Of a DNA stretch of 64,000 bases, positions 40,539 through 59,629 are shown piece after piece; position 1 is the stretch's first letter; each line of letters begins with the position of its first letter. The stretch is from positions 1,860,001-1,924,000 of the forward strand of contig JACPYL010000010.1 of assembly GCA_016196065.1 (NCBI GenBank), written 5' to 3'. Source of the stretch: Acidobacteriota bacterium (GTDB lineage Bacteria; Acidobacteriota; Terriglobia; Terriglobales; Acidobacteriaceae). The position numbers and the translations under genes are program-made. The notes beneath the pieces are model-generated. The model did not search any database, was not told where the DNA came from, and saw only the letters and a program-made list of their open reading frames with translations.

Positions 40539-40706
40539 TCACGGCCGTGCGTGAGGAATAGGCCGACGCGGCGCCTTGCGCACGCCTTGTGATGCCAGGT
40601 ACATGCCGAATGCGACCACCGAGAGCAGAAGCAATACCAGCCAACAAAGCATCACTTTGTCTTGGCGTCGCTGTCTTTCCTGACGCTCTTGTTTTCTGGA
40701 CCGCAA
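40539..40706 (-). CDS. Tiny basic single-pass membrane protein between the two PII genes
   Basis: A 55-residue frame with TTG start: RSRKQERQERQRRQDKV is a strongly basic N-terminus, followed by one membrane helix (MLCWLVLLLLSVVAFGMYLA) and a Pro/Arg-rich tail. It fits exactly between the two PII-like genes, whose frames do not cover it. The lack of an ATG and of a strong ribosome binding site makes the start uncertain, but the composition is that of a true type II membrane peptide. Confidence 0.5.
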   Translation of the reverse strand: MRSRKQERQERQRRQDKVMLCWLVLLLLSVVAFGMYLASQGVRKAPRRPIPHARP

Positions 40707-40735
40707 GCCAGTGCACCCCGTGAGCCACGCGTGGT

Positions 40736-41086: not shown

Positions 41087-44000
41087 CTAAATCTCGACCT
41101 CTGCACCACGCGCTTCAAACCACCGATACAGGGACGGCAAGACAAACAACGTCAAAGTAGTGGAAGTGACGAGTCCACCGATCACCACCGTTGCGAGCGG
41201 TTGTTGGACTTCAGCTCCCGCCCCAGTGGAAATGGCCATAGGCAAGAAGCCCAGGCCGGCGACTAGAGGCGCCATGATCATGGTTCGCATTTTTTCCAAC
41301 GCGCCACGCTCCGTCGCTTCGTTCACCCCCAACCCTTGCCGACGCAACTCAACGATGTGGTTCAAGAGAACAACACCATTCATGACGGCTACGCCAGAAA
41401 CTGCAATAAACCCCACGCCGGCTGAAATACTGAAGGGCATACCGCGAAGGGCAAGAGCAAAAACTCCGCCACTTGCCGCCAGTGGCACGTTAAGAAAGAT
41501 CAGCAATGCCGGCTTTACCGCATTGAAGGTTGTGTAGAGCAAAACGAAAATCAAGAACATGGCCAGTGGAACCACGATGGCCAAACGCTTGGTGGCGCGC
41601 TGGAGGTTCTCGAATTGCCCGCCCCACTCGATCCAGTACGCGGTTGGAAGTTTTACTTTGCTCGCGACCGCCTGTTGCGCCTCGGTGATAAAACCAGCCA
41701 GATCTCGGCCTCGGACATTGGCCTCGACGCTGATTCGACGGTGGATGTTGCTACGGCTGATTTGTGCGGGCCCTGGTTCGGTGTGGATGTAAGCCAGTTG
41801 GCTGAGCGGGATCAACCGACCTTGCGGATCTGCAACCTTGATGTTTTGAATCTTTCCCATGTCGCTACGGTCGTCGGCTTCGAACCGGACCTGGAGAGCA
41901 AATCGCTTTTGTCCTTCAAGCACTTCCCCTACTTCCTTGCCGCCGATCGCCTCAACGGCGTTCAACACATCGCGAGCGTTGATTCCATAGCGTGCGATCT
42001 GATCGCGCCGTATCTCAACACGCAAATACGGGAGACCTCCAGTTTGTTCAGCCTTAACATCAGCGGCACCCTTGACTCCAGACACGACACGAACGATTTC
42101 GTCTGCTTTCGTCCGTAGCGCGTCCAAATCGTCACCGTACAGGGTGATCGCAACGTCTGAACGCACACCCGCGATGAGTTCCTGCATTCTCAGTTCAATC
42201 GGCTGAGAGTAGCTGAATATGTTTCCCGGCACCTCTTTCCTCAGCGCGTCGTCCATTGCCGCAATGAGACCCTCGCGGGTCTGAGCCGTCTTCCATTGCT
42301 CACGCGGCTTCAGAATGACGTAAATGTCGCTAGTCTCGACCCCCATCGGATCAGTGGCGATTTCAGCCCTGCCAGTCCTGGAAACAACCGTAGATACCTC
42401 CGGAAAGCGTTTTAATATCTTTTCAATCAAGGTAGTGCTCTGGACGGACTCCGAGAGGGAAACGCTCGGAAGCCTCCAAGCTTGCAGAGCCAAAGATCCC
42501 TCATCCAGCCGGGGAATGAACTCGGCCCCCAAGAACATCGCGACGCCCGAACCAATCACGAAAAGGCCTGCGGCAACCCCGCCCGTCAACAACGGCTTCG
42601 CCATTGTCTTTCGCAGCCAGGGCAGATAACGGCCTTTCATGAACCGAATGATCCGGGGCTCTTCATGAGAAACTTTCTTTCCAAGGAAAAACGAGGCGAG
42701 AACCGGAACCAGCGTCAACGCAAACACCAGTGAGGCAACGAGGGCAAAGATCACGGTCCACGCCATGGGCCGGAACATCTTGCCTTCCACGCCCTGCAAC
42801 GTAAGGATAGGCACGTAAACGACCGTGATGATCAGAACGGCAAAGAAGACCGGACGAGCGACCTCCCGTGAGGCCTCAAGGATCGTTGCCGTGGGGTTAC
42901 TCGAATTCTGATCGCGCCGCTCCGCCAAAAGGCGGACGATGTTTTCCACCATCACCACGGAGCCATCGACAATTAGCCCGAAGTCAATTGCTCCCAAGCT
43001 CATCAAATTTCCACTAATGCCTCCCTGAACCATCCCGGTGAATGCCACCAGCATCGAGAGAGGAATCGCCGAGGCAACAATCAAGGAAGCGCGAAAATTA
43101 CCCAGCAGCAAGAGCAGGACAGCCACGACAAGGATGGCGCCCTCGATGAGATTTCGCTCGACGGTGCCAATCGTCTTGCGCACCAGCGCGGTGCGATCGT
43201 AAAAGGCTTCAATCTTGACGCCCGGGGGAAGCGTCTTTTCAATTTCCTTGAGTCTTGCTGTGGCGCTTTCGGCGACAACGCGGGAGTTTTCCCCGATGAG
43301 CATCATCACAACGCCGGTCACCACCTCACCACGTCCGTCGCGCGTTGCGGCTCCTTGGCGAATCATCGGAGCGAAACGTACCAGCCCGAGATTCTTGATG
43401 TAGATCGGCGTGCCGCTCTTGCTCGCACCGACCACGACGTTGCCGACATCTTCCAGACTTCCGATGAGGCCCTCAGCGCGAATTACAAACTGCTCCTGGT
43501 TGTGCTCAATGTAGCCGCCACCGGAATTCGCGTTGTTCTTCTCCAGTGCCTCGAACACCGCCGCCAGGGGGATGTTGTAGCTGGTGAGCCGATCAGCATC
43601 GAGTTGAACCTCGTACGTCTTGAGTTCGCCTCCGTAGGCATTCACCTCCACAACACCCTTGACTCCGCGTAATTGCGGAGAGATGTTCCATTCAAGAATG
43701 CTGCGGAGATCCATCAACGAGTAACCTTCTCCACGCACCTCGAACTGATAAATTTCCCCAAGACCCGTACTGATCGGGCCCATTTCAGGCGAGCTAAATC
43801 CCGGCGGGATCATTTCTTTGGCTTGAGAAAGGCGCTCCAAGACCAAGCTCCGGCAGAAATAAATATCCAAACCTTCATCGAAGAAGACGGTGACGGCAGA
43901 AAGACCAAAGCGGGAAATGGAACGGATCTCCTTGATTCCCGGCAGTCCACTCATGGATGTTTCGACAGGAAACGTGATGAGTTTCTCGACCTCCACTGGC

Positions 44001-44167
44001 CCCAAGCCGGGGGCTGTGGTCAAAATCTGCACCTGGTTGGGGGTGATATCGGGAACCGCATCAATCGGTAGGGCCTGCATCGCCCAAATGCCGACACCGA
44101 TGACCACCAGCGTGACTACCAAAATCAAGAACCGATTCTTGAGCGAGAATTCGACTAGGCCGTTCAT
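41087..44167 (-). CDS. Heavy-metal efflux RND transporter, CzcA/CusA family (system 2)
   Basis: A 1026-residue pump, paralogous to the one at 28704. N-terminus MNGLVEFSLKNRFLILVVTLVVIGVGIWAMQALPIDAVPDITPNQVQILTTAPGLGPVEVE; proton-relay segment DFGLIVDGSVVMVEN; periplasmic signature GAEFIPRLDEGSLALQAWRLPSVSLSESV and FSYSQPIELRMQELIAGVRSDVAITLYGDD. Closer to CzcA/CnrA than to CusA by these motifs. A GGAGG site precedes the ATG, 6 bp after the adaptor's stop. It works with the adaptor and TolC proteins encoded just upstream. Confidence 0.93.
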   Translation of the reverse strand: MNGLVEFSLKNRFLILVVTLVVIGVGIWAMQALPIDAVPDITPNQVQILTTAPGLGPVEVEKLITFPVETSMSGLPGIKEIRSISRFGLSAVTVFFDEGLDIYFCRSLVLERLSQAKEMIPPGFSSPEMGPISTGLGEIYQFEVRGEGYSLMDLRSILEWNISPQLRGVKGVVEVNAYGGELKTYEVQLDADRLTSYNIPLAAVFEALEKNNANSGGGYIEHNQEQFVIRAEGLIGSLEDVGNVVVGASKSGTPIYIKNLGLVRFAPMIRQGAATRDGRGEVVTGVVMMLIGENSRVVAESATARLKEIEKTLPPGVKIEAFYDRTALVRKTIGTVERNLIEGAILVVAVLLLLLGNFRASLIVASAIPLSMLVAFTGMVQGGISGNLMSLGAIDFGLIVDGSVVMVENIVRLLAERRDQNSSNPTATILEASREVARPVFFAVLIITVVYVPILTLQGVEGKMFRPMAWTVIFALVASLVFALTLVPVLASFFLGKKVSHEEPRIIRFMKGRYLPWLRKTMAKPLLTGGVAAGLFVIGSGVAMFLGAEFIPRLDEGSLALQAWRLPSVSLSESVQSTTLIEKILKRFPEVSTVVSRTGRAEIATDPMGVETSDIYVILKPREQWKTAQTREGLIAAMDDALRKEVPGNIFSYSQPIELRMQELIAGVRSDVAITLYGDDLDALRTKADEIVRVVSGVKGAADVKAEQTGGLPYLRVEIRRDQIARYGINARDVLNAVEAIGGKEVGEVLEGQKRFALQVRFEADDRSDMGKIQNIKVADPQGRLIPLSQLAYIHTEPGPAQISRSNIHRRISVEANVRGRDLAGFITEAQQAVASKVKLPTAYWIEWGGQFENLQRATKRLAIVVPLAMFLIFVLLYTTFNAVKPALLIFLNVPLAASGGVFALALRGMPFSISAGVGFIAVSGVAVMNGVVLLNHIVELRRQGLGVNEATERGALEKMRTMIMAPLVAGLGFLPMAISTGAGAEVQQPLATVVIGGLVTSTTLTLFVLPSLYRWFEARGAEVEI

Positions 44168-44173
44168 TGATCT

Positions 44174-45397
44174 CTAGTCCTCCCCCCCGATTTCTTCGCG
44201 CATCGAGGCGGACTTCAAATAGAAACTCCCCACGGTCACGACTTTCTCTCCGGGACGAACTCCAGTAAGAATTTGTGTTTCCAATTCTCCGCGTTCTCCA
44301 AGCGTGACCTCGCGCTTTTCGAAATGCGTAGCGTCCCGCTGCACAAAAACCACAGGCTTCCCCTCGATGTCCTGAAGGGCAGCACCGGGAACAACCGCGG
44401 CTGCGGTAGTCGACGTAGTTGGAATGAAAACGTCGGCAAACATTTCGAGCTTCAACCGGCCGTCCTTGTTTGGAACGACGCAGCGAAGCTTCGCTGTACG
44501 TGAGCTCGGGTCAAGAAAATCGCTTAAGTAAGTGATCCGCCCCCGAAACCGCTCATTGGGATAGGATGAAACCGTCACCAGACAATCGCCCTGCCCCGGA
44601 ACCCTGCCCAGGTCCTTTTCGTAAATATCCCCAAGCACCCACACAGATGACGTGTCCACCAAGGTGAACAATTCCTTGTCGCGAGCCACGGACTCGCCCT
44701 GGGAAACGTCATACTTGATAATGATTCCGGCAAAGGGAGCCCGGAGAGTGTTGTGGGAAGCCGTGCGATGACCCTCACCGGAAATCCTCAGTCGCTGAAC
44801 TTGCTCCTCGGTCAATCCAAACCGGTGGAGTTTTTCTTCCGACCTGGCAAGTTCCGCTTCTTTGCTCTGAACCGCAGCTTCCGCCTGTAATTCCTCGGCC
44901 TTGCGCAGTTCAAAATCTCGCGGAGAAATCGCCTCCACTCCTATCAACGTATTCGCGCGCTCCACCGACTTGCGGGCAACCTCCAGTTGGGCCTTTTCCC
45001 TGGCGACTTCACCGTGCATGCTAAGGTGTTCTCCCACGGTTTCGCCGAGTTCGATGTTGTCGTAGAGCAACAGAGGCTGGCCCGCCTGAACGTGGTCGCC
45101 AAGTCTGACATACGGCTTCTCCGCAATTCCTTGGGCCAGCGGATAGATGTGGGCAACGCGCGTTTCGTCTGGAGAAACCACCCCCGTTGCCTTAATCATT
45201 TCTTGAATCTTCTGCTCCCGAACTGACGCCAGGCCGAGATTCGCGTTTCTCTGGGCCTCCACGTTAAGTTCGACCACATTCGGATCTTCGGGTTTTGGGT
45301 CCTTGGCCAACGTGGCGGGCTTGTCACGAAAGAGGAATACTCCGGCGAGAATGAGCCCCATGAGCGATAAGGCGGCGATGAAGTAGCGTTTCTTCAC
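44174..45397 (-). CDS. RND periplasmic adaptor, CzcB-like (system 2)
   Basis: A 407-residue membrane-fusion protein with an N-terminal membrane anchor (FIAALSLMGLILAGVFLF) in place of a lipobox. Lipoyl-like half (YPLAQGIAEKPYVRLGDHVQAGQPLLLYD), helical hairpin (REKAQLEVARKSVERANTLIGVEAISPRDFELRKAEELQAEAAVQSKEAELARSEEKLHRFGL), and beta-barrel region (SSVWVLGDIYEKDLGRVPGQGDCLVTVSSYPNERFRGRITYLSDFLDPSSRTAKLRCVVPN) are in the usual order. Its start overlaps the TolC stop by 4 bp, and the RND gene follows at 6 bp, so translational coupling is likely. Confidence 0.92.
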   Translation of the reverse strand: MKKRYFIAALSLMGLILAGVFLFRDKPATLAKDPKPEDPNVVELNVEAQRNANLGLASVREQKIQEMIKATGVVSPDETRVAHIYPLAQGIAEKPYVRLGDHVQAGQPLLLYDNIELGETVGEHLSMHGEVAREKAQLEVARKSVERANTLIGVEAISPRDFELRKAEELQAEAAVQSKEAELARSEEKLHRFGLTEEQVQRLRISGEGHRTASHNTLRAPFAGIIIKYDVSQGESVARDKELFTLVDTSSVWVLGDIYEKDLGRVPGQGDCLVTVSSYPNERFRGRITYLSDFLDPSSRTAKLRCVVPNKDGRLKLEMFADVFIPTTSTTAAAVVPGAALQDIEGKPVVFVQRDATHFEKREVTLGERGELETQILTGVRPGEKVVTVGSFYLKSASMREEIGGED

Positions 45398-46671
45398 TTA
45401 GGAAGGTCCTTTCCAATGGCGGCTTCGAGCAGAGCTACCGCTGCTCTTTGGTCAAACAAAGCCTGGTTGTAGGTCCGCAGTGCTTCGCGGTAGGCACGTT
45501 GAACATCCAAAAAGCCGATCAGTTCCAGGGCGCCCAGCCGGTAGGAAGACTCGGCGATATCGCGGGCCCTCCGAGCGCTGGGAACATACGTCTTTTGCAA
45601 AGCTTCCACTCGTTGGTTCTGCGCCTGGACAGAGTTGAATGCCTGTTGGACATCCCGACGGACTTCCAATTCCACACGGGTCTGTTCATACCGTTGCTGC
45701 TCAAGTTGAGCGTTGGCTTGGGCAACCCCTCCTTGGTTTCGATTGAAGAGCGGGATGGGGATGTTGACGCCGAAGGCGACTGTGTTCTGGTTAAAGGTCC
45801 GCTTGTACCCGAACGAAGGAGTGATGTTCGGAACGGCCTCGGACTTCTGCAGTCTAATCTCCTGTGAACCCCTTTCCACGCGCTGACGTTGCGCAATCAA
45901 GTCCGCCCGCGCTTGAAGCGCTTGTTGCTGTAAATCAGGGAGCGCTATCGAGGGGGACGCAGAGTTCAGAGTGTCAGTAACATCAAAATCTGTTATCCCC
46001 GGATCTGCGCCGAGAAGTTCCAGTAAAGCGACCTTTGAGTTCTTCAGCTGAAGTTCCGCTTCTACAACATCATTGAAGAACCGCAGTCTCTCCGTCTGCA
46101 ATCGGCTGAACTCAAAACCCGAAACCTCTCCCTGTTTGTAGCGGGCCTCATTCACCTTTACGACCTTGTCATACTCCGACACGATTCCCTGGGCCAGATC
46201 GTACTGTGCTTTCGCTAGGCTTACGGCGAAATAGCGGCTCTTCAGTTCCAGTTTGAGTTGCCGAATTACGTCTTCCAGCGAGGATTGCGAAACTTGCACG
46301 TCCTGCATGGCCACTGCGGTCCGCTTGCCCCGTTTCCCAGCGGTTTCGATCGTTTGGCTGAAGGCAAGGATGGTTTCTGAGTTGTTAATCAACGGACCGG
46401 GATGACTGTCGAACAGCGGATAACTTTCGGATGAAAGCTGGAACTCTGGATTGGGGCGTTTCTGCGCTCCGACCAAGCCGCCTCGCGCTACCGCAATGTT
46501 CTGGCGCTCACGTAGCAAGGTCGGGTTTTTAGCCATCATGATTTCGGTTGCCATGTCGAGGCTTAATCGAGTCGGAGGTGCAGTGGACGGCGTCGTTTCT
46601 TGCGCGTGAAGGAATGCTGGACAGAAAGCAAAGCAGAACAGCAAGTAACAAGGGATCGAATTGAAACGCAT
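45394..46671 (-). CDS. TolC-family outer-membrane factor, CzcC-like (system 2)
   Basis: A 425-residue outer-membrane factor starting at MRFNSIPCYLLFCFAFCPAFLHAQ. Two OEP repeats: RLSLDMATEIMMAKNPTLLRERQNIAVARGGLVGAQKRPNPEFQLS and NTVAFGVNIPIPLFNRNQGGVAQANAQLEQQRYEQTRVELEVRRDVQQAFNS. The ATG overlaps the stop of the sigma-like gene (TAATG at 46669-46673), a coupled arrangement. Together with the adaptor and RND gene it makes a CzcCBA-type trans-envelope pump. Confidence 0.92.
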   Translation of the reverse strand: MRFNSIPCYLLFCFAFCPAFLHAQETTPSTAPPTRLSLDMATEIMMAKNPTLLRERQNIAVARGGLVGAQKRPNPEFQLSSESYPLFDSHPGPLINNSETILAFSQTIETAGKRGKRTAVAMQDVQVSQSSLEDVIRQLKLELKSRYFAVSLAKAQYDLAQGIVSEYDKVVKVNEARYKQGEVSGFEFSRLQTERLRFFNDVVEAELQLKNSKVALLELLGADPGITDFDVTDTLNSASPSIALPDLQQQALQARADLIAQRQRVERGSQEIRLQKSEAVPNITPSFGYKRTFNQNTVAFGVNIPIPLFNRNQGGVAQANAQLEQQRYEQTRVELEVRRDVQQAFNSVQAQNQRVEALQKTYVPSARRARDIAESSYRLGALELIGFLDVQRAYREALRTYNQALFDQRAAVALLEAAIGKDLPK

Positions 46672-47120
46672 TAATGACGCTCCTTGGGACGGTCTTTTTG
46701 CAGCAGATCGTTGAGGTGAAAGATTCCGCGCATCCACACTTTGTGAGCTTCCGCCCGCGATAAGTCAGAGGCCACGGCCAGCGCTCCCCACTCCATACGC
46801 AGGAGGTTTCTCATGGTCACAACTGCACGCTCTAGCCGAGGTAACTGTTGAATCGCGCGCTCCAGTCGTGAAGCACTTTGCAAAGACTGCGAAGACCCAT
46901 TTCGATATTTCTCCGTCGCTCGCAAAGCCAGGCTGAGGAGACGCGGCGGGATCTCCTGAGTCATTGGAAGTTCACGCTCTCGATAGAAAGCGGTAAAGGC
47001 ATCAGAGGCTGCGTCTTCCGCCGCTGCTCCAGCTCCGAGGAACATGCGGCAGAAGGCGACCACATCCTTCTTCCACTTGGCGCAAAATTCCTCGACTTCA
47101 TGAGTAGTGGCGGCGGACAT
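46671..47120 (-). CDS. Sigma-70-like protein in the metal operon (copy 2)
   Basis: A 149-residue divergent ECF-like protein. The first half (EFCAKWKKDVVAFCRMFLGAGAAAEDAASDAFTAFYRE) aligns with sigma region 2.1-2.2; the second (LERAIQQLPRLERAVVTMRNLLRMEWGALAVASDLSRAEAHKVWMRGIFHLNDLL) with region 4, including LP-x-x-x-R-A-V and a weak helix-turn-helix. The region 2.3-2.4 motifs that melt and read -10 DNA (such as FRxWLxxIxxN) are reduced to PRLLSLALRATEKY, so function as a true sigma factor is uncertain. A paralogue is immediately upstream. Confidence 0.75.
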   Translation of the reverse strand: MSAATTHEVEEFCAKWKKDVVAFCRMFLGAGAAAEDAASDAFTAFYRERELPMTQEIPPRLLSLALRATEKYRNGSSQSLQSASRLERAIQQLPRLERAVVTMRNLLRMEWGALAVASDLSRAEAHKVWMRGIFHLNDLLQKDRPKERH

Positions 47121-47720: not shown

Positions 47721-48107
47721 TTAACTACGAGGGGGGTGGTACAGTGGCGGTGCGGCGGCAGTAACTTGATTGAAATGATAGAACGTCAGCGCTTCCTCAG
47801 CGCGTTGAAACGTAGCAACGTGGAAATGGGAGGAAGGGACGATGTGGGCACAGCAGCAGAAACAATCTTCCTGCGCACTCGGGGCGGTCGGCTGTCCCGC
47901 ATTCGCCGCCATCCGGAATTGAGCTTCCGAAGGTACCACCTGTCCAACCTGAGAGCTGTTTGCCGATTGAGAAGCGACCGGCGAAACCGGCGATCCGTCA
48001 TTGTCGCTCTGGCAAAGACCCGGCACGCTGAGATCCGCTAGCGTCCAAAGTAACAAAAGGCTAGCCATCCACGTCTGCCAAGCCGGTCTGTGCATCGAAA
48101 ACCGCAT
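47721..48107 (-). CDS. Cys/His-rich exported protein at the head of metal operon 2
   Basis: A 128-residue protein: MRFSMHRPAWQTWMASLLLLWTLADLSVPGLCQ is a signal peptide, and the mature part carries a compact Cys cluster with nearby His (EDCFCCCAHIVPSSHFHVATF) and a Pro-rich end (AAPPLYHPPRS). A similar acidobacterial pattern with CFCCC-H-I-V-P often precedes RND efflux genes. It probably binds a soft metal ion in the periplasm. It is 84 bp upstream of the first sigma-like gene. Confidence 0.65.
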   Translation of the reverse strand: MRFSMHRPAWQTWMASLLLLWTLADLSVPGLCQSDNDGSPVSPVASQSANSSQVGQVVPSEAQFRMAANAGQPTAPSAQEDCFCCCAHIVPSSHFHVATFQRAEEALTFYHFNQVTAAAPPLYHPPRS

Positions 48108-48447
48108 GTTCGAATAATACCCCACGAGCGCTCTCGCTCAAATCTATAGACGTTTGAAAACCGTTACTGATGGTAAATATTTGTAAAGAACAGCCCTTTG
48201 CTATGTGCACTGGCAGGTGTCCTATAACCACAATCACTTGCGGGTGGATGCCTGCCCGTTCGACACGTGGCCCCCCGAAGCGCAGGCATTTACCGTCGCA
48301 CAAACCTACGAGTCTGTGACCCGCACCAGTATCTGGCGCCGGGACACAGAAAGGGCGGCCCCGTATCCCTCCTGTTCCATCGACACCATGTCACTTCATC
48401 TTCATCGCGCGGGGGAGCGCCCACTGACTTGAGGCGCACGGGAGCAA
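48108..48447. other. Promoter region of metal operon 2
   Basis: No gene on either strand up to the remnant at 48448. On the minus strand an AT-rich stretch near 48145-48185 precedes the operon and includes TATAGA, a possible -10 element with a poor -35. The 8-bp palindrome GAGCGCTC lies close to the Cys/His-rich gene. No match to CueR, CsoR or Zur operators is apparent. Confidence 0.35.
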
Positions 48448-48631: not shown

Positions 48632-51600
48632 TTACGGCGTTACGCGTATCCATGCAGCGACACTCGGCACCCGTGCCGTGTCCACGACGAACAGCAGGTA
48701 ATGCCCCGGAGCCGCAATGTTTCCGTTGGGCGGCGCCTTGACTTGAACTGAGGTCGCTCCGCGTCCGGTGATTTCACAGCCGATCACGCGCTGCGACTGG
48801 TTAAAGCCGTGCGTCACAGCGCCTGGGCGGATGAGCAGGACTTCAGCGATGGAAGTAGCGCTGGGCGTGTTCACCGTGAAGACGGCACCGTGAGTCACAC
48901 TGGCGGGCGAGTTTGTGATAACCGGCCGCGCCCGGAAGTAATACCAGGGGAAGTAGCGTTCGTGTGGTGTGGTCTCGCCCGACTTCCATCCACCATTGAT
49001 GTCCTGATCGCCGCCCATCAGAATGCTGCCATCGGCGAGGAGGATCGCGGTGGAGTGGTAACCGCGCGAGTATTTCATCACCGCGCAGGGCACCCATCCC
49101 GCAGCCAGATTCTTGGTGTCGAGGATCTCCGCCGGCCCGCCGGTGTTGGGAATGCCGCCAGCTAGAAACACCCGTGAATCCGGCATCAGGACCGTGTTCA
49201 CCTGGTGGGCGCGAGGCTGATTCAGATTGGGCAGCGCCTTCCAGGCAGGTACGGCATCGGAGAGATCGATCATTTCTGAGGACTGCGGTGCGTTCGGCAA
49301 AATATCTCCGCCAGCAATCAGCACGCGAGGTTTGTAGTCCGGCGGCAGCAATGGCAAGAGCACCGACGTTCCCTTTTCGCCGCTGCTGCTGCGGTTGCCG
49401 GCGATGGTCGGCCATGTCTTGGCAGAATCATCCACCGGCGCCAGCGGATCAAAGCGCCGAGTGATTCCGCGTGGCCCAGCGATGAACAATTCACCATTGG
49501 GCATCACATAGGTCCAGGGATAGTACAGGTAGTCAAACGTGGGAGGCAATGCAATCGCCGGATCCCATGTGCCGGTGCCAGGCTCGTAGATCTCAATCGA
49601 TCTCGCGACAATTTGTGTCGGTGTGCCGCCTAGGATGGTGAGCACTTTGCCGTTGGCCAGCGTCAGACTGGTTGAGTAGAAGCGCTGTTCCGCCGTGGGC
49701 GCAACTCTCGACCACATTAAAGAAGGAGGATCGAACAAGTACGACTCGCGCGGTGTGAAGCCGCCATGAATGAGCAGTGTCCCTTGCGGAGTATCCAGGA
49801 ACGCATGCTCGGCTGACCACAGGTTCGCCAATCCGCGATCGTTTGGTGGAGATGTTACGTTGAAAGGCTGGTTGGCCGGAGCGGAGAAGGCGCCTGCGGG
49901 AGTTGAGTAGTCCCAAATCCGGCTGATGTCGTCGCGCGCGTCCCCGTAGCCCCAGTACAAAACCTTTTCCGTTTTTGGAAGCAGACAAGCGTGCATGAAA
50001 GTCACAGAAGGGCTTCCAGCGACCTCTTCCCACTTGCCGCAGTCCAGGCTCTCGCAGTGATTGGGGTCGATCGCAGGACAGTTGTTATCCCCATGATCCA
50101 ATGGAAGGCCGGTTTCATGAGACAGGCGCTTTGCCTGTTCGGGAGTGAGCCACAGTGTCTGCCGCGATCGCACCAAGCCGGCGAGACCGGCCATCATGTG
50201 CATCTCCACGTGGCAGTGCACGAGAAAGTCTCCGCGCACGTGATATTTCTTCGCGTGTTTGGGCCGGTGTTCCGGATCTTGAGCCTTGGCGATGTCCGCG
50301 GGTAACAGCAACACCGGCGGGGCGGTGGTCTCAACCACGAAGGATTCGGCCGGACCAAGACTGCGTCCATCATAGGCTTCGCCGGCAAAATGCCAGCGCT
50401 GCCCATGCGTATGGAAGTTATGCCACATCATGCCCAAGTCCAAATTGAAAACGTACCAACGAATCTTCTGCCCCGCCTCTGCCAGGACGGTCGGGGTATT
50501 CCCAACAAAGGACCGGCCATTCAGACAGAATGACGGCAGTCCCCCACCATCTTCGGTAACCGTATGGACATTATTGTTGCCGTTGTTCCACTGAACCTTT
50601 CCACCAGGACCAACCTTGGCGTTGTTGGGAACAAACTTCATGTCCAGCGGGTTCGAGTCGTCAATATTCACTGTGGCCAGCATAGGCTCTCCCATGGCGA
50701 CCGTAACCGTCGCCTGCATCTGGGTGTGAATGTTGCAGTGATAGTCGAATGTCCCTTCGGTGCCGAATGTCGCTTCAAAGGTGCCATTGAATGGGATAGG
50801 CCCGCTGTCGAACGCCGGAACCCCGCTCGCTCCTTGCATGGCGTGCAAGAACAGCGGAACATGCAACGGTTTTTTCGGATCAGGACACGGGTGTATCCCG
50901 GGAAGATGCAAGTACTCCTCCCAATCGATTTGCCTGCCCTCAAACTCCACCGGCCGCATGGGTAAGGGGTTGTGGCCTCCACCTTCGTGGCCGCCACCTC
51001 CGGGCATGGGCATCGGCATATTCATTGCCATGCCAGCGTTCTCGGCGGGCATCCGGGCGACGTGGTCCTCCGGCTCCGGTGGCAGATGCTTGCGCAGATC
51101 GCGCAACAGTTCTTCCACTTCGGGCGGAAGCTTCATCCGCGGGGGAGGGTCGCAATCGTCCTTCGGCAGCACGATTAGACCGCCGAGCAATCCCCGATTC
51201 ACATTCGCGCCGATATTCTGGAAATGGTCGTGGAACGGCCAGGCGCCGAGCATCTTATCAGTCACGTCAAAAGTGTAAGTCCAGTGCTGGCCGGGGCAGA
51301 TCTCGTCTGACCGGCGGCCATCGCTGGACTGCGTACCAAACGGCCACGACCCGTCCGAGTCGATGCCGTATTGCAAGCCATGCAGATGGAAGCTGTGCGG
51401 GGCGCTGTCGGCGTTTACCACATGAATCTTGAGGCGGTCCCCAGGCCGCGTGTAGATCACCGTGCCCGGTACACGGCGGTGATACGGAGGCTCGTTGATG
51501 TCAGCCAGGACAATCTTGTCAGGTTTTGGCACCAGGTATGCCGGATCAAGATACTCGCGGTAAACCAGCACCGACACAGTTCGCGCATTGATCTCCGCCG

Positions 51601-51742
51601 TCGGAATCGTCCCATCGTCATGTCCCATGTTGCGCATGCAGTCGCGCCCATAGCGAATAGGAGGAGCAAAGGTGGGATCGGGACAAACAGGAGAGTAGTC
51701 AGGTATCGATTCGATTTTCAGGTAAATATGTCGGACTGCCAT
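48632..51742 (-). CDS. Multicopper oxidase fused to a galactose-oxidase-like module
   Basis: A 1036-residue protein without a signal peptide. Residues about 50-200 and 380-530 are cupredoxin halves with all copper-ligand motifs of a multicopper oxidase: HLHG (119-122), HDH (171-173), HNFHTHG (441-447) and HCHVEMH (509-515). Between them are a Met/His-rich linker (231-267) and a further cupredoxin-like strand set with HCNIHTQM (335-342). Residues about 580-920 are kelch blades and 930-1036 a DUF1929-like domain, as in galactose and glyoxal oxidases. Of the copper-radical ligands, Tyr689, Tyr895-His896 and His978 align, but the Cys that crosslinks to the Tyr is Ser643 (NLWSAEH). The start is secure (MAVRHIYLK). 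It lies downstream of the CopB gene on the same strand. Confidence 0.9.
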   Translation of the reverse strand: MAVRHIYLKIESIPDYSPVCPDPTFAPPIRYGRDCMRNMGHDDGTIPTAEINARTVSVLVYREYLDPAYLVPKPDKIVLADINEPPYHRRVPGTVIYTRPGDRLKIHVVNADSAPHSFHLHGLQYGIDSDGSWPFGTQSSDGRRSDEICPGQHWTYTFDVTDKMLGAWPFHDHFQNIGANVNRGLLGGLIVLPKDDCDPPPRMKLPPEVEELLRDLRKHLPPEPEDHVARMPAENAGMAMNMPMPMPGGGGHEGGGHNPLPMRPVEFEGRQIDWEEYLHLPGIHPCPDPKKPLHVPLFLHAMQGASGVPAFDSGPIPFNGTFEATFGTEGTFDYHCNIHTQMQATVTVAMGEPMLATVNIDDSNPLDMKFVPNNAKVGPGGKVQWNNGNNNVHTVTEDGGGLPSFCLNGRSFVGNTPTVLAEAGQKIRWYVFNLDLGMMWHNFHTHGQRWHFAGEAYDGRSLGPAESFVVETTAPPVLLLPADIAKAQDPEHRPKHAKKYHVRGDFLVHCHVEMHMMAGLAGLVRSRQTLWLTPEQAKRLSHETGLPLDHGDNNCPAIDPNHCESLDCGKWEEVAGSPSVTFMHACLLPKTEKVLYWGYGDARDDISRIWDYSTPAGAFSAPANQPFNVTSPPNDRGLANLWSAEHAFLDTPQGTLLIHGGFTPRESYLFDPPSLMWSRVAPTAEQRFYSTSLTLANGKVLTILGGTPTQIVARSIEIYEPGTGTWDPAIALPPTFDYLYYPWTYVMPNGELFIAGPRGITRRFDPLAPVDDSAKTWPTIAGNRSSSGEKGTSVLLPLLPPDYKPRVLIAGGDILPNAPQSSEMIDLSDAVPAWKALPNLNQPRAHQVNTVLMPDSRVFLAGGIPNTGGPAEILDTKNLAAGWVPCAVMKYSRGYHSTAILLADGSILMGGDQDINGGWKSGETTPHERYFPWYYFRARPVITNSPASVTHGAVFTVNTPSATSIAEVLLIRPGAVTHGFNQSQRVIGCEITGRGATSVQVKAPPNGNIAAPGHYLLFVVDTARVPSVAAWIRVTP

Positions 51743-51828: not shown

Positions 51829-53889
51829 TTATGGGACCGCGCTTTGTAGTTTTAGCCGGCGAAGCAACTGTGCATTCGCAGCCACGATGATGGTGGAGAG
51901 GCTCATTGCGACTGCACCAACGCTCATGGGCAGATCAAGTCCCCATCGGACGAGAAGGCCTCCCGCGACGGGGATCGCGACGAGGTTATACGCGGTCGCC
52001 CAAACGAGATTTTGAATCATCTTTCGGTAGGTGGCCCGAGACAGTTTGATCGCCCCCACAACATCACGTGGATCGCTACGCACCAGGACGATTCCGGCTG
52101 ACTCAATTGCCACATCGGTTCCAGCGCCAATCGCGATTCCGACATCCGCGGTCGCCAGCGCCGGCGCGTCGTTCACGCCGTCGCCAACCATTGCGACCCG
52201 CTTGCCCCCCGACTGAAAGCGCTTTACTGCCGCAGCCTTGTCGGCAGGGAGAACCTCGGCTGCAACCTCGTCTATGCCGATGCGGCGGGCAACCGAATCG
52301 GCAACTGTCTTCGCGTCTCCGGTGATCATCGCAACCCGGATACCAAGCCCATGAAGCTCGGTGACCGCCTCCTTTGATTCGGGCCGAATCTCATCCTCGA
52401 CGGCGAAAGCACCCAGCAGTTTCCCTTCGGCGACAACATAGAGAACTGTCTTTCCCTCGGATGCCCACTGCGTCGCCAGCCTTTCAACTTCTGAGGGTAC
52501 GATTACCTTGCGCTCGGTCAATAGACGCGGCCCACCGATTGTGACGCTCTTGCCGTTTACGCGCGCCTGTGCCCCTCGACCCGGCAGCGCTTCGAAGTCG
52601 GCAGCTTCTAACGTGGCCAGGCTTCGACGCTTGGCCTCGGCCACGATTGCCTTAGCGAGCGGGTGTTCGGAGTTGGCTTCGACAGCAGCGGCATGGGCAA
52701 GCAGATCACTTTCATTGCTGCTCGGCGCAGCCACGACTCCGGACAAGGCAGGGGATCCGCGTGTGAGCGTTCCGGTCTTATCGAAAATCACCATGTCCAA
52801 ATTGCGCGCGCGTTCGAGCGCGAGTCTGTCTTTGACGAGGAGACCGTTCTGAGCCCCGAGCGAGGTCGAGATTGCAATCACGAGCGGAATCGCAAGCCCC
52901 AAGGCGTGCGGGCAAGCAATGATGAGGACGGTTGCCGTTCTGATCAGAGCGTGTTCTTTGTCTCCCGAAAACCACCAGTAGGTGAGCGTGATCGCACCGG
53001 ACGCTACTGCCACGTAGAAAAGGATTGCGGCGGCACGATCGGCAAGGGCTTGCGTGCGAGACCCAGAAGCCTGTGCGGTGGCAACGAGCCGCATGATGCC
53101 GGACAGAGCGGTTTTCTCCCCGACTGCCGTGACGCGGACTCGAAGGCTTCCGCCGCTGGCGACCGTTCCCGCAATGACGGTGCTATCTGGCCCCTTCGAA
53201 ACGCTCCGGGACTCGCCGGTAATCATCGACTCGTCAACATCAGCGGCGCCCTCAACGACCCTGCCATCCGCCGGGACGCGGGTTCCGGGCCGGACTAGGA
53301 CAACGTCTCCCACTTGTAACTGAGAAAGCGGAATGGTTTGAGTCTCCGCACCACTGACACGTTCGGCTGTGTCTGGGAGCAGCGCGGCAAGTGCATTGAG
53401 CGCGCCACGAGCTTGAGAAATGGCTCGCATTTCCAGCCAGTGGCCGAGAACCATGATCGTAATGAGCGTTGCGAGTTCCCACCAGACTTCGATCTCGAAG
53501 AGGCCGAATGTTGCGGCGAGCGACGTACCAAAGGCAACCGTAATCGCCAGGCTGATAAGGGTCATCATGCCGGGCTTGTGGTCCGCGAGTTCGCTCCAGG
53601 CCCCACGGATGAAAACGAGGCCGCCGTAAACGAACACCACCGTCCCCAGGATTGGAGCGATTAAATTCGAGCCGGGAAAGGAAGGTGCGCTGTACCCAAG
53701 CCAGTGTTGGACATCGGTCGACCAGAAGACCACTGGGATAGTGAGAGCAAAGCTTAACCAAAACTTGTCACGAAACATAGCGACAGAGTGTCCGGCGTGA
53801 CGGTCGTGACTCGCGTCAGCTTGGGACATCTTGTGACCGGCATGTAGGTCGGTCACTTCTTCATGGGGTTGGTGTGTCGTGTGATCCAT
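51829..53889 (-). CDS. copB: CopB-type copper-translocating P1B ATPase
   Basis: A 686-residue P-type ATPase. The N-terminus is His-rich (MDHTTHQPHEEVTDLHAGHKMSQADASHDRHAGHS), and the ion-binding motif is CPH (IIACPHALGLAIPLV), the CopB-type P1B-3 signature. DKTGTLTRG, HP (EHPLAKAIV), TGES and GDGVNDAPALATADVG are all present. CopB-type ATPases export Cu(II) or Ag(I)/Cu(I) from the cytoplasm. It is the first gene of a two-gene unit with the multicopper oxidase fusion (86 bp gap). Divergent from the 54366 gene; the intergenic region holds two palindromes. Confidence 0.92.
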   Translation of the reverse strand: MDHTTHQPHEEVTDLHAGHKMSQADASHDRHAGHSVAMFRDKFWLSFALTIPVVFWSTDVQHWLGYSAPSFPGSNLIAPILGTVVFVYGGLVFIRGAWSELADHKPGMMTLISLAITVAFGTSLAATFGLFEIEVWWELATLITIMVLGHWLEMRAISQARGALNALAALLPDTAERVSGAETQTIPLSQLQVGDVVLVRPGTRVPADGRVVEGAADVDESMITGESRSVSKGPDSTVIAGTVASGGSLRVRVTAVGEKTALSGIMRLVATAQASGSRTQALADRAAAILFYVAVASGAITLTYWWFSGDKEHALIRTATVLIIACPHALGLAIPLVIAISTSLGAQNGLLVKDRLALERARNLDMVIFDKTGTLTRGSPALSGVVAAPSSNESDLLAHAAAVEANSEHPLAKAIVAEAKRRSLATLEAADFEALPGRGAQARVNGKSVTIGGPRLLTERKVIVPSEVERLATQWASEGKTVLYVVAEGKLLGAFAVEDEIRPESKEAVTELHGLGIRVAMITGDAKTVADSVARRIGIDEVAAEVLPADKAAAVKRFQSGGKRVAMVGDGVNDAPALATADVGIAIGAGTDVAIESAGIVLVRSDPRDVVGAIKLSRATYRKMIQNLVWATAYNLVAIPVAGGLLVRWGLDLPMSVGAVAMSLSTIIVAANAQLLRRLKLQSAVP

Positions 53890-54365: not shown

Positions 54366-55532
54366 ATGCAGAAACTACCAGAATCCTTGCTGTGCGCCGC
54401 ATTGCTCATTGTGAGCCTTGTCGCTGTGAGCGGGACAGCCGCCGGTGCAACTCCCTACGTAGTTGCCAATGACGACTCTTCGTTTCCTTTTACCGGCGTC
54501 AGTTTTTTTGCGGTGGGTCCGAACGGCGGACTGACGCGCAAGGGAGAGGTCGCCACCCCCGGAACTGGCATCGGCGGCGGTTATTTTGGGGCGAACCGGA
54601 TCATCGTCCTCAACAGCCCAAGTCAGGCTTGCGTCTTTGCCTCCGAGGCGGGGAGCGGTGACGTCGTGGGAATCGATATCAACACCTTGTCCGTGGGCGG
54701 GAGTGCCAGCGGATCCGACACTGATGCGGGCACGGGCAACGGTATTGGTCTGGCGGCGAACGCTCAGTATCTGTACGCCGATTTCACCGACTCCAACACC
54801 ATCGGGACCTTCAGAGTTCTGTCGGGATGCGGCCTGATGTTTGTCAGCAGCGTCTCGGTTGTGGGTGCCGAGGACGGCGGCATCAATGGACTTGCCGCTC
54901 ACGGAAATATGTTGGTCGCCACCTACACCGACGGCACCATCGAATCCTTCGACATTGCCAACGGTCCTCCGGTCTCTCACGGCGACAAACAGCTCTCCAC
55001 TGGGACCGTGCGCTCGAAGGGCGCGACCTTTCCGAATTCAATCGACATTACGAGCGATGGCCGCTTCGCGATTTTTGGCGACACCTCCACTTCCATGGTG
55101 GTGGAAGTGTCGGACATTTCCTCCGGCAAGCTGACCAAGACCAGGGTTTACACTTCGACTACGAGCATCAGTTCTAGCAACGTCATGCTGAGTCCGGACG
55201 AAAGCATACTCTACGTGGTCAATACGCAGGGCGATTCGGTCACGGCGTTGTTCTTTCACAAGACCACGGGCGTGCTAACCAAGGGTTGCACTTCCGACCC
55301 GATCCGTGGCCACTCTTCGAATTTCTCGTATCTCGCGGGAGCAGCGCTGATGAGCTCCACTGGAAACGGCAGCGGAATCTATGTAGCGGAGTTTCCCTCG
55401 GGTATCGCACGGATGAAACTCAAGGTCAAGGGCAAGGTCTGTTCGTGGCGTGAAGTGCCGCAGTCTCCCTTCGAGGATAAGAACGCTTCGGGGCTGCTGT
55501 CGATCGGTACTTATCCGCCACGGTCCTTTTAG
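54366..55532 (+). CDS. Exported beta-propeller protein (lactonase-like)
   Basis: A 388-residue exported protein. The signal peptide is MQKLPESLLCAALLIVSLVAVSGTAAGA; the body has repeated strands with YVVANDD, GGLTRKGEVATPGTG, AANAQYLYADFTDSNTIGTFRV, GTIESFDIANG, DITSDGRFAIFGD, LSPDESILYVVNTQGDSVTALFFHKTTGVL. These are propeller blades of the lactonase/YVTN group. It is 58 bp before, and co-directional with, a multicopper oxidase gene. Catalytic activity cannot be inferred. Confidence 0.8.
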   Translation: MQKLPESLLCAALLIVSLVAVSGTAAGATPYVVANDDSSFPFTGVSFFAVGPNGGLTRKGEVATPGTGIGGGYFGANRIIVLNSPSQACVFASEAGSGDVVGIDINTLSVGGSASGSDTDAGTGNGIGLAANAQYLYADFTDSNTIGTFRVLSGCGLMFVSSVSVVGAEDGGINGLAAHGNMLVATYTDGTIESFDIANGPPVSHGDKQLSTGTVRSKGATFPNSIDITSDGRFAIFGDTSTSMVVEVSDISSGKLTKTRVYTSTTSISSSNVMLSPDESILYVVNTQGDSVTALFFHKTTGVLTKGCTSDPIRGHSSNFSYLAGAALMSSTGNGSGIYVAEFPSGIARMKLKVKGKVCSWREVPQSPFEDKNASGLLSIGTYPPRSF

Positions 55533-55590
55533 AAACGTAGAGCCGGCGAAGGTTTTTATACTGATCTTCCTGAAGGTGAAGGAGCTGGAT

Positions 55591-57207
55591 ATGCGCTCGG
55601 TGTCGAGGTGGCTGTTTGCTTTTGTGGTTTGCGGATGTTCTTTTCTAAGGCTCGCGGCGCAATGCCCCGATCGTCCCATTTCCGGTACGGTGGTCGACGA
55701 CCCACTCGCTCTTTCCTCGCAGAACGGTGTGCTTTCCGCGCAAATGACACTGGCGCACTCCGTGGATGGCAACAGTTTTACGCACTACTGCTACAACTAC
55801 ACTGCCGGCGATCAGGTCTTTGAAGCCCCGACTCTGCGTGTTAGTCCTGGAGACGAGCTGGATCTCAAAATCCTCAACCGCATTCAGAACGATTTTGGGC
55901 AGACCAAGCCCAAGACCAACGCCAAGACTAATGCCAGGGGCCGGAACAAAACGAAGATGACCATGCCGATACCGGAATCGCCCGATGCCAACTGCGGAGA
56001 CGGCGGCGATATGACCATCGATGCCACCAACGTTCACTACCACGGCATGAATATCTCTCCGAAATGCCATCAGGACGACGTCATCAACACCCTGATTCAG
56101 CCCGGCAGCGCGGGTTTCCAATACAAGATTCCGATTCCTGCCACGCAGCCGCCGGGGTTGTACTGGTACCACCCGCACGTCCACGGGTTCACGGAATTCC
56201 AGGTGAACGGCGGTGCTGCGGGCGCTTTGATCGTCGAAGGAATGGAAAAGGTTCACCCCGAGGTTGCAGGCCTCACAGAACGGGTTTTCGTTATCCGCCA
56301 GCAGTTCCTAGTCCCGTGGGTCCCCGGCCCGTATGAGCTAACAATTAACTATCAAGTCGCCCCCGTCATCAGTGGGGCGAAGCCTGTTATTCAGATGAAG
56401 CCCGGCGAAAAACAGTTTTGGCGGGTTGCCAACGCCACTATCCAGGACTTCATGCCATTGCAGGTGATCGTCGACAACCAGCCGCAACCGCTGCAAGTCG
56501 TTGCCCTCGACGGCTATCCGCTGGCTCAGATCAGAACTCAGGACACCATTGTCCTCCCACCAGCTGGCCGGGCTGAGTTTATCGTGCAGGCGCCTCCAGT
56601 GGGGTCTACTGCATATGTCTTTTTAAAGGACTATTCGACCGGCCCGACCGGAAATGCCGACCTCCAGCAGTCGCTCGGCGCGATCCAAATAACCAACAAC
56701 GCGAATTTCTCGCATATGCCCAAGGCGCTAGGGTTCAGTTCGCCGGCCAAGCTCAAGTTTGCAGATTTGGCCGCACAGAAGCCCACCGCGGAACGGAAGT
56801 TGTTTTTCTCAGAAGAATTCGCCGGCACCAACGGCCCCATCCAGTTCTACATCACTGTGGAAGGACAAAAGCAGAAGGTCTTCGAAGCCAACGAAAAGCC
56901 AGTGATCACCACCAAAGTAGGAGCGGTCGAAGATTGGACCATTGAAAACCGCGCTCTTGAAACCCATGCCTTCCACATGCACCAGATTCATTTCCAGATG
57001 CTGGAAATCGATGGAAAACCAGTGGCCAACCAGGACATGCGCGACACCATCGAAATTCCCTTCTGGGAAGGCACAGGACCTTTTCATAGCGTCAAAGTGC
57101 GCATGGATTTCCGCGATCCGACGATCGCAGGCACATTTTTGTTTCACTGCCACATCCTGCTGCATGAAGATCTCGGCATGATGCACAAGATCCTTGTAGA
57201 ACCATAA
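55591..57207 (+). CDS. Exported multicopper oxidase
   Basis: A 538-residue exported multicopper oxidase. AAGGAG precedes the ATG at 55591; MRSVSRWLFAFVVCGCSFLRLAAQ is the signal peptide. All four ligand blocks are visible: HYHGM (149-152), HPHVHG (194-199), HAFHMHQIHF near residue 458 and FHCHILLHEDLGMM near the end, ending in the usual Met ligand. A basic disordered insertion (TKPKTNAKTNARGRNKTKM, 105-123) is unusual. Three cupredoxin domains fit the length. It likely oxidises Cu(I), phenols or metal ions in the periplasm. Propeller gene upstream, frameshifted small gene downstream. Confidence 0.92.
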   Translation: MRSVSRWLFAFVVCGCSFLRLAAQCPDRPISGTVVDDPLALSSQNGVLSAQMTLAHSVDGNSFTHYCYNYTAGDQVFEAPTLRVSPGDELDLKILNRIQNDFGQTKPKTNAKTNARGRNKTKMTMPIPESPDANCGDGGDMTIDATNVHYHGMNISPKCHQDDVINTLIQPGSAGFQYKIPIPATQPPGLYWYHPHVHGFTEFQVNGGAAGALIVEGMEKVHPEVAGLTERVFVIRQQFLVPWVPGPYELTINYQVAPVISGAKPVIQMKPGEKQFWRVANATIQDFMPLQVIVDNQPQPLQVVALDGYPLAQIRTQDTIVLPPAGRAEFIVQAPPVGSTAYVFLKDYSTGPTGNADLQQSLGAIQITNNANFSHMPKALGFSSPAKLKFADLAAQKPTAERKLFFSEEFAGTNGPIQFYITVEGQKQKVFEANEKPVITTKVGAVEDWTIENRALETHAFHMHQIHFQMLEIDGKPVANQDMRDTIEIPFWEGTGPFHSVKVRMDFRDPTIAGTFLFHCHILLHEDLGMMHKILVEP

Positions 57208-57241
57208 TCCTTTCCCGAGATCAAGAAAGGTTATACGGCAC

Positions 57242-57653
57242 ATGCGCGAACGAATGCGGATTTTCCTTGGCAGAGCACTCTTATTGCTAGCCGGATATTT
57301 TGCCGGAAGTCATCACACGACCGTCGCATATGCGGGAGCACCCGCACCAGGCGTCGTCCCGAAATCGTATGGCCGGCTGGTAACGGCTATTCCAGACTCG
57401 ATCGGCACAGGTCTGATTTTTGAAGACTAAGGAGGGTACGATTCGGTTCGTGAGTGTCACCGGCATGAACGAAGGAGAAATACCTCGTTACGCTGCTACT
57501 CCCACTCGCGGCGACATACCCAAATCGTATGGACATCTCGTAGCCGCGGTCGTAAACCACGGACTTACGGCTCTTGTATTCGAGGATAGCAACGGCGCGA
57601 TTCAGTTCGTCACCATGACGGGTGAGACCGAGAAGGAATTGGTGCGGGAGTAA
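57242..57653 (+). pseudogene. Exported tandem-repeat protein broken by a one-base frameshift
   Basis: The first frame (57242-57430) reads a signal peptide (MRIFLGRALLLLAGYFAGSHHTTVAYA) then PKSYGRLVTAIPDSIGTGLIFED and a stop. Skipping T57428 continues it as KEGTIRFVSVTG in the second frame (57429-57653), which holds PKSYGHLVAAVVNHGLTALVFEDSNGAIQFVTMTGE. The two halves are copies: PKSYGxLVxAxxxxGxxxLxFEDxxGxIxFVxxTG. So the joined protein of about 136 residues has two 50-residue repeats. The shift looks like a one-base insertion; no slippery site for programmed frameshifting is present. Function unknown. Confidence 0.7.
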
Positions 57654-57665
57654 CAATTGCAGAAA

Positions 57666-57688
57666 GCCTCCGCTGCGCAGGCCTTTTT
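57666..57688 (+). terminator. Probable intrinsic terminator
   Basis: A short stem (GCCT/AGGC with CG/CG inside) at 57666-57682 is followed by CTTTTT. It comes 13 bp after the end of the repeat gene. Confidence 0.5.
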
Positions 57689-57930
57689 GCCTCGGAGGCC
57701 ATTCGATCTCAGGTATTGTCAATAGTCATCATCAGTCCGATCCCTTGATTTTCTACTCGCTTTTCTACTTTGCCATTATCCGTATAATGTGGAATGTCAC
57801 AATGAACAGCCCCTTGCCAGCCCCTCCGGGCTAGGCGGTCAATGGGCTGAGTGAACACGGCTTGTCCGGTGCTTCTCTTTCAATGCTGCGCTCAAAGGAC
57901 ACAACGTTACTTGGCAGATTAGAGATGCCG

Positions 57931-58386
57931 CTAGTCAGCCGAACCGAGGCGCCTTACGCTCCAGTCCAGCAAAGCCACCTTCCACGTAGGTCCGGTTTTC
58001 TGTAGGACGTAGGCGGACCAAACCAAGTAACCGGCGTTCTTGCCATCTTTCCCGGCCACGTCGATCGTCTGCTTGGTATAGCCCCATGCCATCTCGGAAC
58101 CCGCGACGACTTTCACAAACTCCCATGTCGAAGGGGCTGCGGGCTCCTTGAACTCCGGAACCAAGTGATTATCACGGAAGTCCTTCCAACCATCGTTGCG
58201 ATGACCGTTCTCCAAGACAACAACATCAGGCGAAACCAGTGTTTCAATTGCGCCGACATCGCGGCGCTCGATTGCTTGCTGGAATTGCTGAATCACGCCC
58301 TTGACAGCGGCCTCATCAGGACCAGCAGCAAAACCGGTAGTCGCAAGGGCGACCGGTAACAGCACCAGATTCAAGAGTCTCCACAT
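57931..58386 (-). CDS. Exported NTF2-like (DUF4440) protein, paralogue of 35961
   Basis: A 151-residue exported protein (MWRLLNLVLLPVALATTGFAAG signal peptide) with the SnoaL/DUF4440 fold: VKGVIQQFQQAIERRDVGAIETLVSPDVVVLENGHRNDGWKDFRDNHLVPEFK and a C-terminal LLDWSVRRLGS. The match to the protein at 35961-36407 is clear over the full domain. Role unknown; a ligand-binding or small catalytic pocket is likely. It ends a minus-strand pair with a methyltransferase. Confidence 0.85.
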   Translation of the reverse strand: MWRLLNLVLLPVALATTGFAAGPDEAAVKGVIQQFQQAIERRDVGAIETLVSPDVVVLENGHRNDGWKDFRDNHLVPEFKEPAAPSTWEFVKVVAGSEMAWGYTKQTIDVAGKDGKNAGYLVWSAYVLQKTGPTWKVALLDWSVRRLGSAD

Positions 58387-58395
58387 TTCTCTCTC

Positions 58396-59058
58396 CTAAG
58401 TAGATGGCTTGCGTGCCCGGTACAGCGATAACGTTCCGAGAATTGTTACGTATGAGTTTGTGGTTTGTACCTCTTCGAATCCTGCGAGCCCGAGGAGATC
58501 CGGCAGCAGCCCCCTTACGTTGTCGGTCGTCGTAGCGAAGCCATCGAGGAGCTGAACGCCGACAAACGCGACCCTCATGGCTAGACTTGTTGCCTTTCCC
58601 CAGTCAGCGATATGAAATTCTCCGCCCGCACGCAGGACGCGCAGAACCTCTCGCATCGCTTCCAACTTCATCTCGGACGGCAAGTGATGAAAAAACAAGC
58701 TTGAGAGAACTCGGTCGAACGATTCATCAGCATACGGCAGTGCCGATGCCAGCCCCTGATCGAATTGCACCTCGATCCCGGCCGTTTCCAGTTTCGCTCT
58801 TGCAAGTTTCAAGACTTCCGGATCTCCATCTAACCCGAACACTTCAGCACCTCGATGAGCGTACTTTGCGAAGACGGCGAGAGTACCGGTTCCGCAGCCC
58901 AAGTCGAGGACTCGGTATCCATCTTGAATGTTCGCTTCCCGAAGCAACGCGTCCTTGAACATAGCTTCACGGGTAGTGAGCCGGACAACCGGATCGTAGA
59001 ACCGCGTCAGCCAGCGATATCCAAGTGCAGGAATGTATGAGTTCGACGATGTTTTCAT
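58396..59058 (-). CDS. Class I SAM-dependent methyltransferase
   Basis: A 220-residue methyltransferase of the UbiE-like group: motif I VLDLGCGTGTLAVFAK, acidic FGLDGDPEVLKLA, then ALPYADESFDRVLSSLFFHHLPSEMKLEAMREVLRVLRAGGEFHIADWGKAT. MKTSSNSYIPALGYRWLTRFYDPVVRLTTREAMFK is the start (59058); an upstream GTG adds nine residues. Its substrate is unknown. The stop is 9 bp before the DUF4440 gene on the same strand, so the two are probably co-transcribed. Confidence 0.85.
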   Translation of the reverse strand: MKTSSNSYIPALGYRWLTRFYDPVVRLTTREAMFKDALLREANIQDGYRVLDLGCGTGTLAVFAKYAHRGAEVFGLDGDPEVLKLARAKLETAGIEVQFDQGLASALPYADESFDRVLSSLFFHHLPSEMKLEAMREVLRVLRAGGEFHIADWGKATSLAMRVAFVGVQLLDGFATTTDNVRGLLPDLLGLAGFEEVQTTNSYVTILGTLSLYRARKPST

Positions 59059-59268
59059 TTGTTGCCCAAATAACCTTTCGAACACGGGCGCAAAGCGAGG
59101 AATCCTTAGATTTCTCGCTCTGCAGCCCGTGTCGAGCGCAGCCGGTCTCTCAGGAACCCGTCTGCCCTCTCCACCGAGACGCTCGACGTGTTTTTGGGGA
59201 AGGACATCTACGTCGTCGTTTGGTGGACATCTTGATCGCTATTCCGGTGCTGACTTACGCGCACACCC

Positions 59269-59619
59269 TCACTTATGGTCCATGCCTTCCATGCCCTTCA
59301 TCCCATCCATGGGTTGTTTCCCTTTCATGACTCCAAAATGCACTTCGTTCGCGACCAGCTTATCGCCCGAGACATCTGCATGGATTACAACCTTGTCACC
59401 AACTTTTAGGTCTTTCAGGACGGCCGCGGCACCACTCTTCTCAAACTTGGTTTTGTCACTCACATCTACCGTTACGGATGTCTTGACCGTAGTTTTAACA
59501 GTAATAGAGGTATCGGAAATGCTGGTGACCGTGCCCATTACATGCTTTTCCTTTTCATGGGCAAGAGCCATTAGCGAAAATGCGAACAACAAGGTAACGA
59601 CTGCGACTGTGCGTTTCAT
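59269..59619 (-). CDS. Small exported OB-like protein with Met-rich tail (DUF5666-like)
   Basis: A 116-residue exported protein: MKRTVAVVTLLFAFSLMALAHE signal, then a beta-barrel-like domain (VMGTVTSISDTSITVKTTVKTSVTVDVSDKTKFEKSGAAAVLKDLKVGDKVVIHADVSGDKLVANEVHFG) of the DUF5666 type, and a Met/His/Asp tail (QPMDGMKGMEGMDHK) suited to binding copper. GAGGAG precedes the ATG. Last gene of the 63188-59269 operon. Confidence 0.75.
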   Translation of the reverse strand: MKRTVAVVTLLFAFSLMALAHEKEKHVMGTVTSISDTSITVKTTVKTSVTVDVSDKTKFEKSGAAAVLKDLKVGDKVVIHADVSGDKLVANEVHFGVMKGKQPMDGMKGMEGMDHK

Positions 59620-59629
59620 AGTTTTCTCC

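Follow-up and report, generated by a model that had tools for sequence, protein, structure and literature searches.

Serine in place of the cross-link cysteine in a clade of multicopper oxidases fused to a galactose-oxidase-like module

The window, the 64,000-nucleotide stretch of an Acidobacteriota genome that was analysed as a whole, has a single open frame of 1036 amino acids on its minus strand (48632-51742), in which a multicopper oxidase (MCO) is fused to a galactose-oxidase-like module; the plus strand of the same interval is full of stops. A serine, Ser643, takes the place of the cysteine that makes the Cys-Tyr cross-link, and the protein groups with those of three Nitrosospira-family genomes (L087, L088 and L089) in what we call the Ser clade. 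We propose that the site has been rebuilt, keeping one copper without the thioether radical, and that the module holds copper or substrate beside a working MCO. We give this reading a probability of about 0.6.

The fusion had been proposed by an earlier, sequence-only reading of the same DNA, and the ORF together with Pfam, NCBIfam and PDB sequence and structure matches bore it out. Pfam placed Cu-oxidase_3 at residues 89-194, Copper-bind at 367-404, Cu-oxidase_2 at 401-526 and GO-like_E_set (PF09118) at 939-1034. By eye, a signal peptide was not obvious in this protein or in any of its relatives, and the window protein has on one chain the conserved leaderless N-terminus, the MCO half and the propeller half of the fusion family. 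All features of the gene given here are on the minus strand. Cupredoxin domain 1 (residues 89-194; 51161-51478), recognized by Pfam and motif alignment, carries His119, His121, His171 and His173. The alignment placed a Met/Pro/His-rich insert, MAMNMPMPMPGGGGHEGGGH (residues 195-290; 50873-51160), between cupredoxins 1 and 2. The second, middle cupredoxin (residues 296-348; 50699-50857) contains the type-1 set His300, Cys336, His339 and Met342, and was amicyanin-like by alignment and by its match to solved structures. The C-terminal cupredoxins (residues 353-530; 50153-50686; Pfam and alignment) contain His441, His444, His446, His509-Cys510-His511 and His515. From motif knowledge we take His119, 121, 171, 173, 444, 446, 509 and 511 to be the trinuclear cluster, and His441-Cys510-His515 and His300-Cys336-His339-Met342 to be the type-1 sites. 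On this assignment the MCO half is predicted to have every ligand of the trinuclear cluster and those of two type-1 coppers. As had been claimed from the letters alone, all cupredoxin copper ligands were present; they were invariant in 25/25 fusion proteins, and the Pfam matches were above cut-off. The best PDB relatives of this half were ceruloplasmin and two-domain laccases, which share its HxHG and HCHxxxH motifs but have a different domain count and no propeller module.

The linker between domains 1 and 2 was about 9 residues long in Cys-type fusions (those with the cross-link cysteine) and 90-140 in the Ser clade. The insert of the window protein is reminiscent of Met-rich copper-binding segments; in the other Ser-clade members it was long but not Met-rich.

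The second half is predicted to have the galactose-oxidase fold, with a kelch-type propeller (residues 565-938; 48929-50050; structure matches and AlphaFold/Foldseek) and a GO-like E-set domain (residues 939-1034; 48641-48928; Pfam). The NCBIfam GlxA model NF052501 matched residues 665-1035 with an E-value of 2e-47, at 161.7 bits, far below its 800-bit cut-off. Foldseek with an AlphaFold model of the module (pTM 0.85, pLDDT 74.9) gave 4UNM (GlxA) and galactose oxidases as top matches with a probability of 1.00. The full-length AlphaFold model, made with six sequences, had a pLDDT of 40.5 and was set aside. GlxA of Streptomyces lividans (PDB 4UNM; W288A variants 5LQI/5LXZ) was the best match of the module in both sequence and fold. 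The two have the copper ligands and the E-set domain in common; GlxA has Cys121, Trp288 and no MCO half, whereas the window protein has Ser643, Phe688 and an MCO half.

We aligned the module to a profile of 36 Cys-type modules from which the window was left out. Tyr689, Tyr895-His896 (49055-49060) and His978 (48809-48811), which the sequence-only reading had picked out by eye, fell on the ligand columns with a posterior of at least 0.95. These four copper ligands were never lost in the first 36 Cys-type modules and were kept in every Ser-clade member, as were Arg687 and Thr977 (4/4). Their retention would be unexpected in a structural pseudo-domain, that is, a propeller that has no copper and binds only a substrate, a surface or its MCO partner. 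Such a pseudo-domain would fit the changed residues around the Cys and the long stem branch of the clade; we consider it rather improbable, and prefer a module that still holds copper.

Ser643 (codon TCA; 49814-49816) was placed on the cross-link Cys column, again with a posterior of at least 0.95 against a profile that contained Cys-type modules only, and the substitution reported earlier from the sequence was thus confirmed. The column was C in 49/49 Cys-type modules (30 stand-alone and 19 fusions, some of them near-copies) and Ser in 4/4 Ser-clade members, so that Ser at this column is far beyond chance. From TCA, the codon in each of the four Ser-clade genes, either Cys codon can be reached only by changing two bases, which rules out a single sequencing error. 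The survey of homologues for Cys versus Ser gave a divided answer: the three relatives share the Ser, and the other fusion-family members have Cys. That another cysteine forms the cross-link is very unlikely. Cys586, the candidate named earlier, fell on a column of Ala, and the three closest relatives have Ser there. In favour of Cys989 (48776-48778), all Ser-clade members have it, where 45/49 Cys-type modules have Leu; but it is in the E-set domain, eleven residues C-terminal to His978, and given the known fold would hardly reach Tyr689.

L087, L088 and L089 have N-L-W-S-A/G-E-H and R-F-Y as in the window, with 52-54% identity in the propeller half. Support for the Ser clade was 100/100 when the tree was built from the propeller half and 94/88 when it was built from the MCO half. 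Because it was recovered from both halves, these appear to have travelled together, and the simplest reading is that the Cys was lost once, after the fusion. In the propeller tree a long stem branch (1.02) leads to the clade, but beyond it the module is conserved. For the closest pair, L088-L089, on which alone selection was measured since window pairs were saturated at synonymous sites, dN/dS was 0.064 for the propeller and 0.052 for the MCO part. The Ser clade therefore appears to be under strong purifying selection. We had considered that the window propeller was a fast-evolving, decaying singleton; this was dropped when three relatives showed the same signature, the long branch being the stem of the clade. 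The fusions L088:7035-10514 and L089:7027-10392 are extended at the N-terminus by a domain of about 115 residues; the window protein has none.

Few columns separate the Ser clade from the other modules. A column was called switched if it was at least 80% conserved in Cys-type modules and fixed for another residue in the Ser clade, and only eight columns were: F642W, C643S, G645E, M683T, W688F, R788G, L989C and G1024R. Three of the eight are known cofactor or second-sphere positions. Taken with the shared signature and the low dN/dS, this small number indicates that the Ser change is a selected cofactor replacement, a conserved natural variant rather than decay or error. Sequencing error, a frameshift or pseudogene decay could have been suspected from the local insertions that flank the site and from the window being alone without Cys among the first eight fusions. 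However, the same motif and codon occur in three independent genomes, dN/dS is about 0.06 and the frame is open throughout; the three relatives effectively refute this explanation, and we give it hardly any weight.

Of the switched residues, F642W, C643S, G645E and W688F, all common to the four Ser-clade members, lie at or near the cofactor site in the alignment. Trp642 (49817-49819) is at the position of galactose oxidase Phe227 and was Phe in 49/49 Cys-type modules; all Ser-clade members have Glu645 (49808-49810), at a position where most Cys-type modules have Gly. In the pair Phe688-Tyr689 (49676-49681), Tyr is the copper ligand and Phe replaces the second-sphere Trp (GlxA Trp288). The site of residue 688 corresponds to GlxA Trp288 and FgrAldOx Trp509, a Trp stacked on the cross-linked Tyr; the two residues are consecutive in FgrAldOx (PMC13094651). 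By alignment of the module to GlxA, the GlxA pair is consecutive too. Galactose oxidase Phe227, which corresponds to residue 642, pi-stacks with Phe194 in a cluster that includes Trp290 (PMC6519835). The Cys and the second-sphere Trp thus seem to have been lost together, with a Trp appearing beside the Ser; the stacking Trp is missing from its usual site in the window, and the adjacent Trp642 may substitute for it. By eye, the Trp290 region of the window module has Pro or Thr nearby. Like galactose oxidase (AA5_2) and glyoxal (aldehyde) oxidase (AA5_1), the module has the fold and the first-shell Tyr, Tyr-His and His. Unlike them, it lacks the thioether Cys and has no Trp at the known second-sphere sites, with Phe at the Trp288 site and Trp at the Phe227 position.

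The sequence-only reading held that the Cys-Tyr link is needed for the radical. This is not strictly so, as GlxA with Gly or Ser in place of the Cys remains able to form a radical, now on the second-sphere Trp (PMC8840625; PMC13094651). Loss of the Cys alone therefore does not exclude radical chemistry. The earlier proposal of a copper-retaining, Cys-less module holds, with the ligands kept and no evident substitute Cys, but its further point that the module works without radical chemistry is not assured. The changed Trp pair, the three further genomes with the Ser and the Cys of the other fusions had escaped it. The main rival to our reading, unlikely but serious, is accordingly a natural, evolved copper radical oxidase free of the cross-link and fused to an MCO, with the radical on uncrosslinked Tyr689 and/or a relocated Trp642. 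The reciprocal swap F642W/W688F accompanies C643S in 4/4 members and the module appears to be under strong purifying selection, both of which agree with a relocated radical, as does the Trp radical of Cys-less GlxA. Phe688, however, removes the very Trp known to bear that radical, and the cross-linked cofactor of GlxA is described as needed for activity, C121G being unable to form it. The C121G and Cys-to-Ser laboratory variants of GlxA remove the same Cys position with the copper site otherwise intact; the Ser-clade change differs from them in that it occurs naturally, is kept throughout a clade and comes with the exchange of Trp for Phe and of Phe for Trp.

In the rebuilt site that we favour, the module would still bind one copper, with a pair of Tyr and a pair of His as its ligands. 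Self-processing to the Cys-Tyr thioether would be impossible without the Cys, and ordinary copper-radical catalysis would be absent or altered, so that the module would not be an ordinary alcohol or aldehyde oxidase of the two-electron, peroxide-forming kind and is more likely a copper- or substrate-holding site. The working MCO half would reduce oxygen to water. Electrons or substrate might also pass between the halves.

A scan of GTDB genomes found fusion relatives in Nitrosomonas, Nitrosovibrio, Nitrosospira, Methylococcaceae, Anaeromyxobacter and one genome of the window's phylum. The 25 proteins compared are mostly of the canonical F-C...R-W-Y type, and the fusion is a real, conserved, horizontally scattered family. 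It was common in the Nitrosospira family (21/125 genomes). Elsewhere it is rare: in the window's order it was found in the window genome only, among 249 genomes, and in the phyla of Nitrosovibrio and Anaeromyxobacter in the seed genome only, among 399 and 193 genomes, respectively. The window's genus was represented by 23 other genomes, and a copy of the N-terminal half was seen in none of them, which suggests that the window genome gained the fusion horizontally. The plasmid records searched contained no full-length homologue, and scans of IMG/VR added one full fusion, on a contig matching the Nitrosovibrio locus. Cys-type fusions (Nitrosospira, Nitrosomonas, Methylococcaceae, Anaeromyxobacter and the window's phylum) share the architecture, MCO ligands and leaderless N-terminus of the window protein, but they keep F-C-x-G-H/Q, R-W-Y and the short domain 1-2 linker, which the window protein does not.

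Several further loci were seen in these scans. Nitrosospira briensis (G453; L032, L019) has two Cys-type fusions, each from a different deep lineage of the family. L086 (G1140) is a fusion fragment interrupted by TGA, apparently a pseudogene. The window's own genome also encodes a stand-alone canonical module with F-C and R-W-Y (L022:7012-9219; C10, about 1332617). Adjoining the Nitrosovibrio fusion, L018 1281-7075 has genes that by eye resemble the left end of a Mu-type prophage, and this stretch is also in IMG/VR as a viral contig.

By the ORF list and annotation, a copper-type P1B ATPase (51829-53889, minus strand) lies directly upstream of the fusion gene, with a gap of 86 bp. The fusion gene is in turn upstream of a CusA/CzcA-type RND efflux system on the same strand (permease, adaptor and outer membrane factor; 41087-46737, minus strand), and two more MCO genes are nearby. 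Metal-handling genes are dense around the fusion: 28704-40875 and 55450-63188 of the window contain another CusA/CzcA-type RND system, another P1B ATPase (Zn/Cd-like) and two further MCOs. Downstream, 47721-48125 (minus strand) encodes a small protein that starts with a leader-like segment, contains the motif CFCCCAH and had no Pfam or NCBIfam match. From its copper-efflux neighbours and its Met-rich insert, the fusion may serve to oxidize or detoxify copper in this genome, which is the weakest step of our argument. The other three Ser-clade genes have a tyrosinase-VWA gene, a subtilase or unrelated genes as neighbours, and the copper neighbourhood is not common to them. Since they differ in both neighbours and inserts, copper resistance is a local hint and not the function of the family. 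A shared copper island was also considered and rejected, the other fusion loci having no conserved neighbourhood. A tyrosinase-VWA gene and two subtilase genes were found beside different fusions (L088:2651-5761; L089:10579-11454; L017:5451-7016).

In the open-access literature, to which our search was confined, we found no description of an MCO/galactose-oxidase-like fusion or of a natural Cys-less member. The role of the Cys-Tyr link has so far been tested mainly with laboratory mutants. The Ser clade is a natural version of the Cys-removal experiment, in which the ligands are kept and the surrounding aromatics are swapped, and the close Cys-type fusions are its matched controls.
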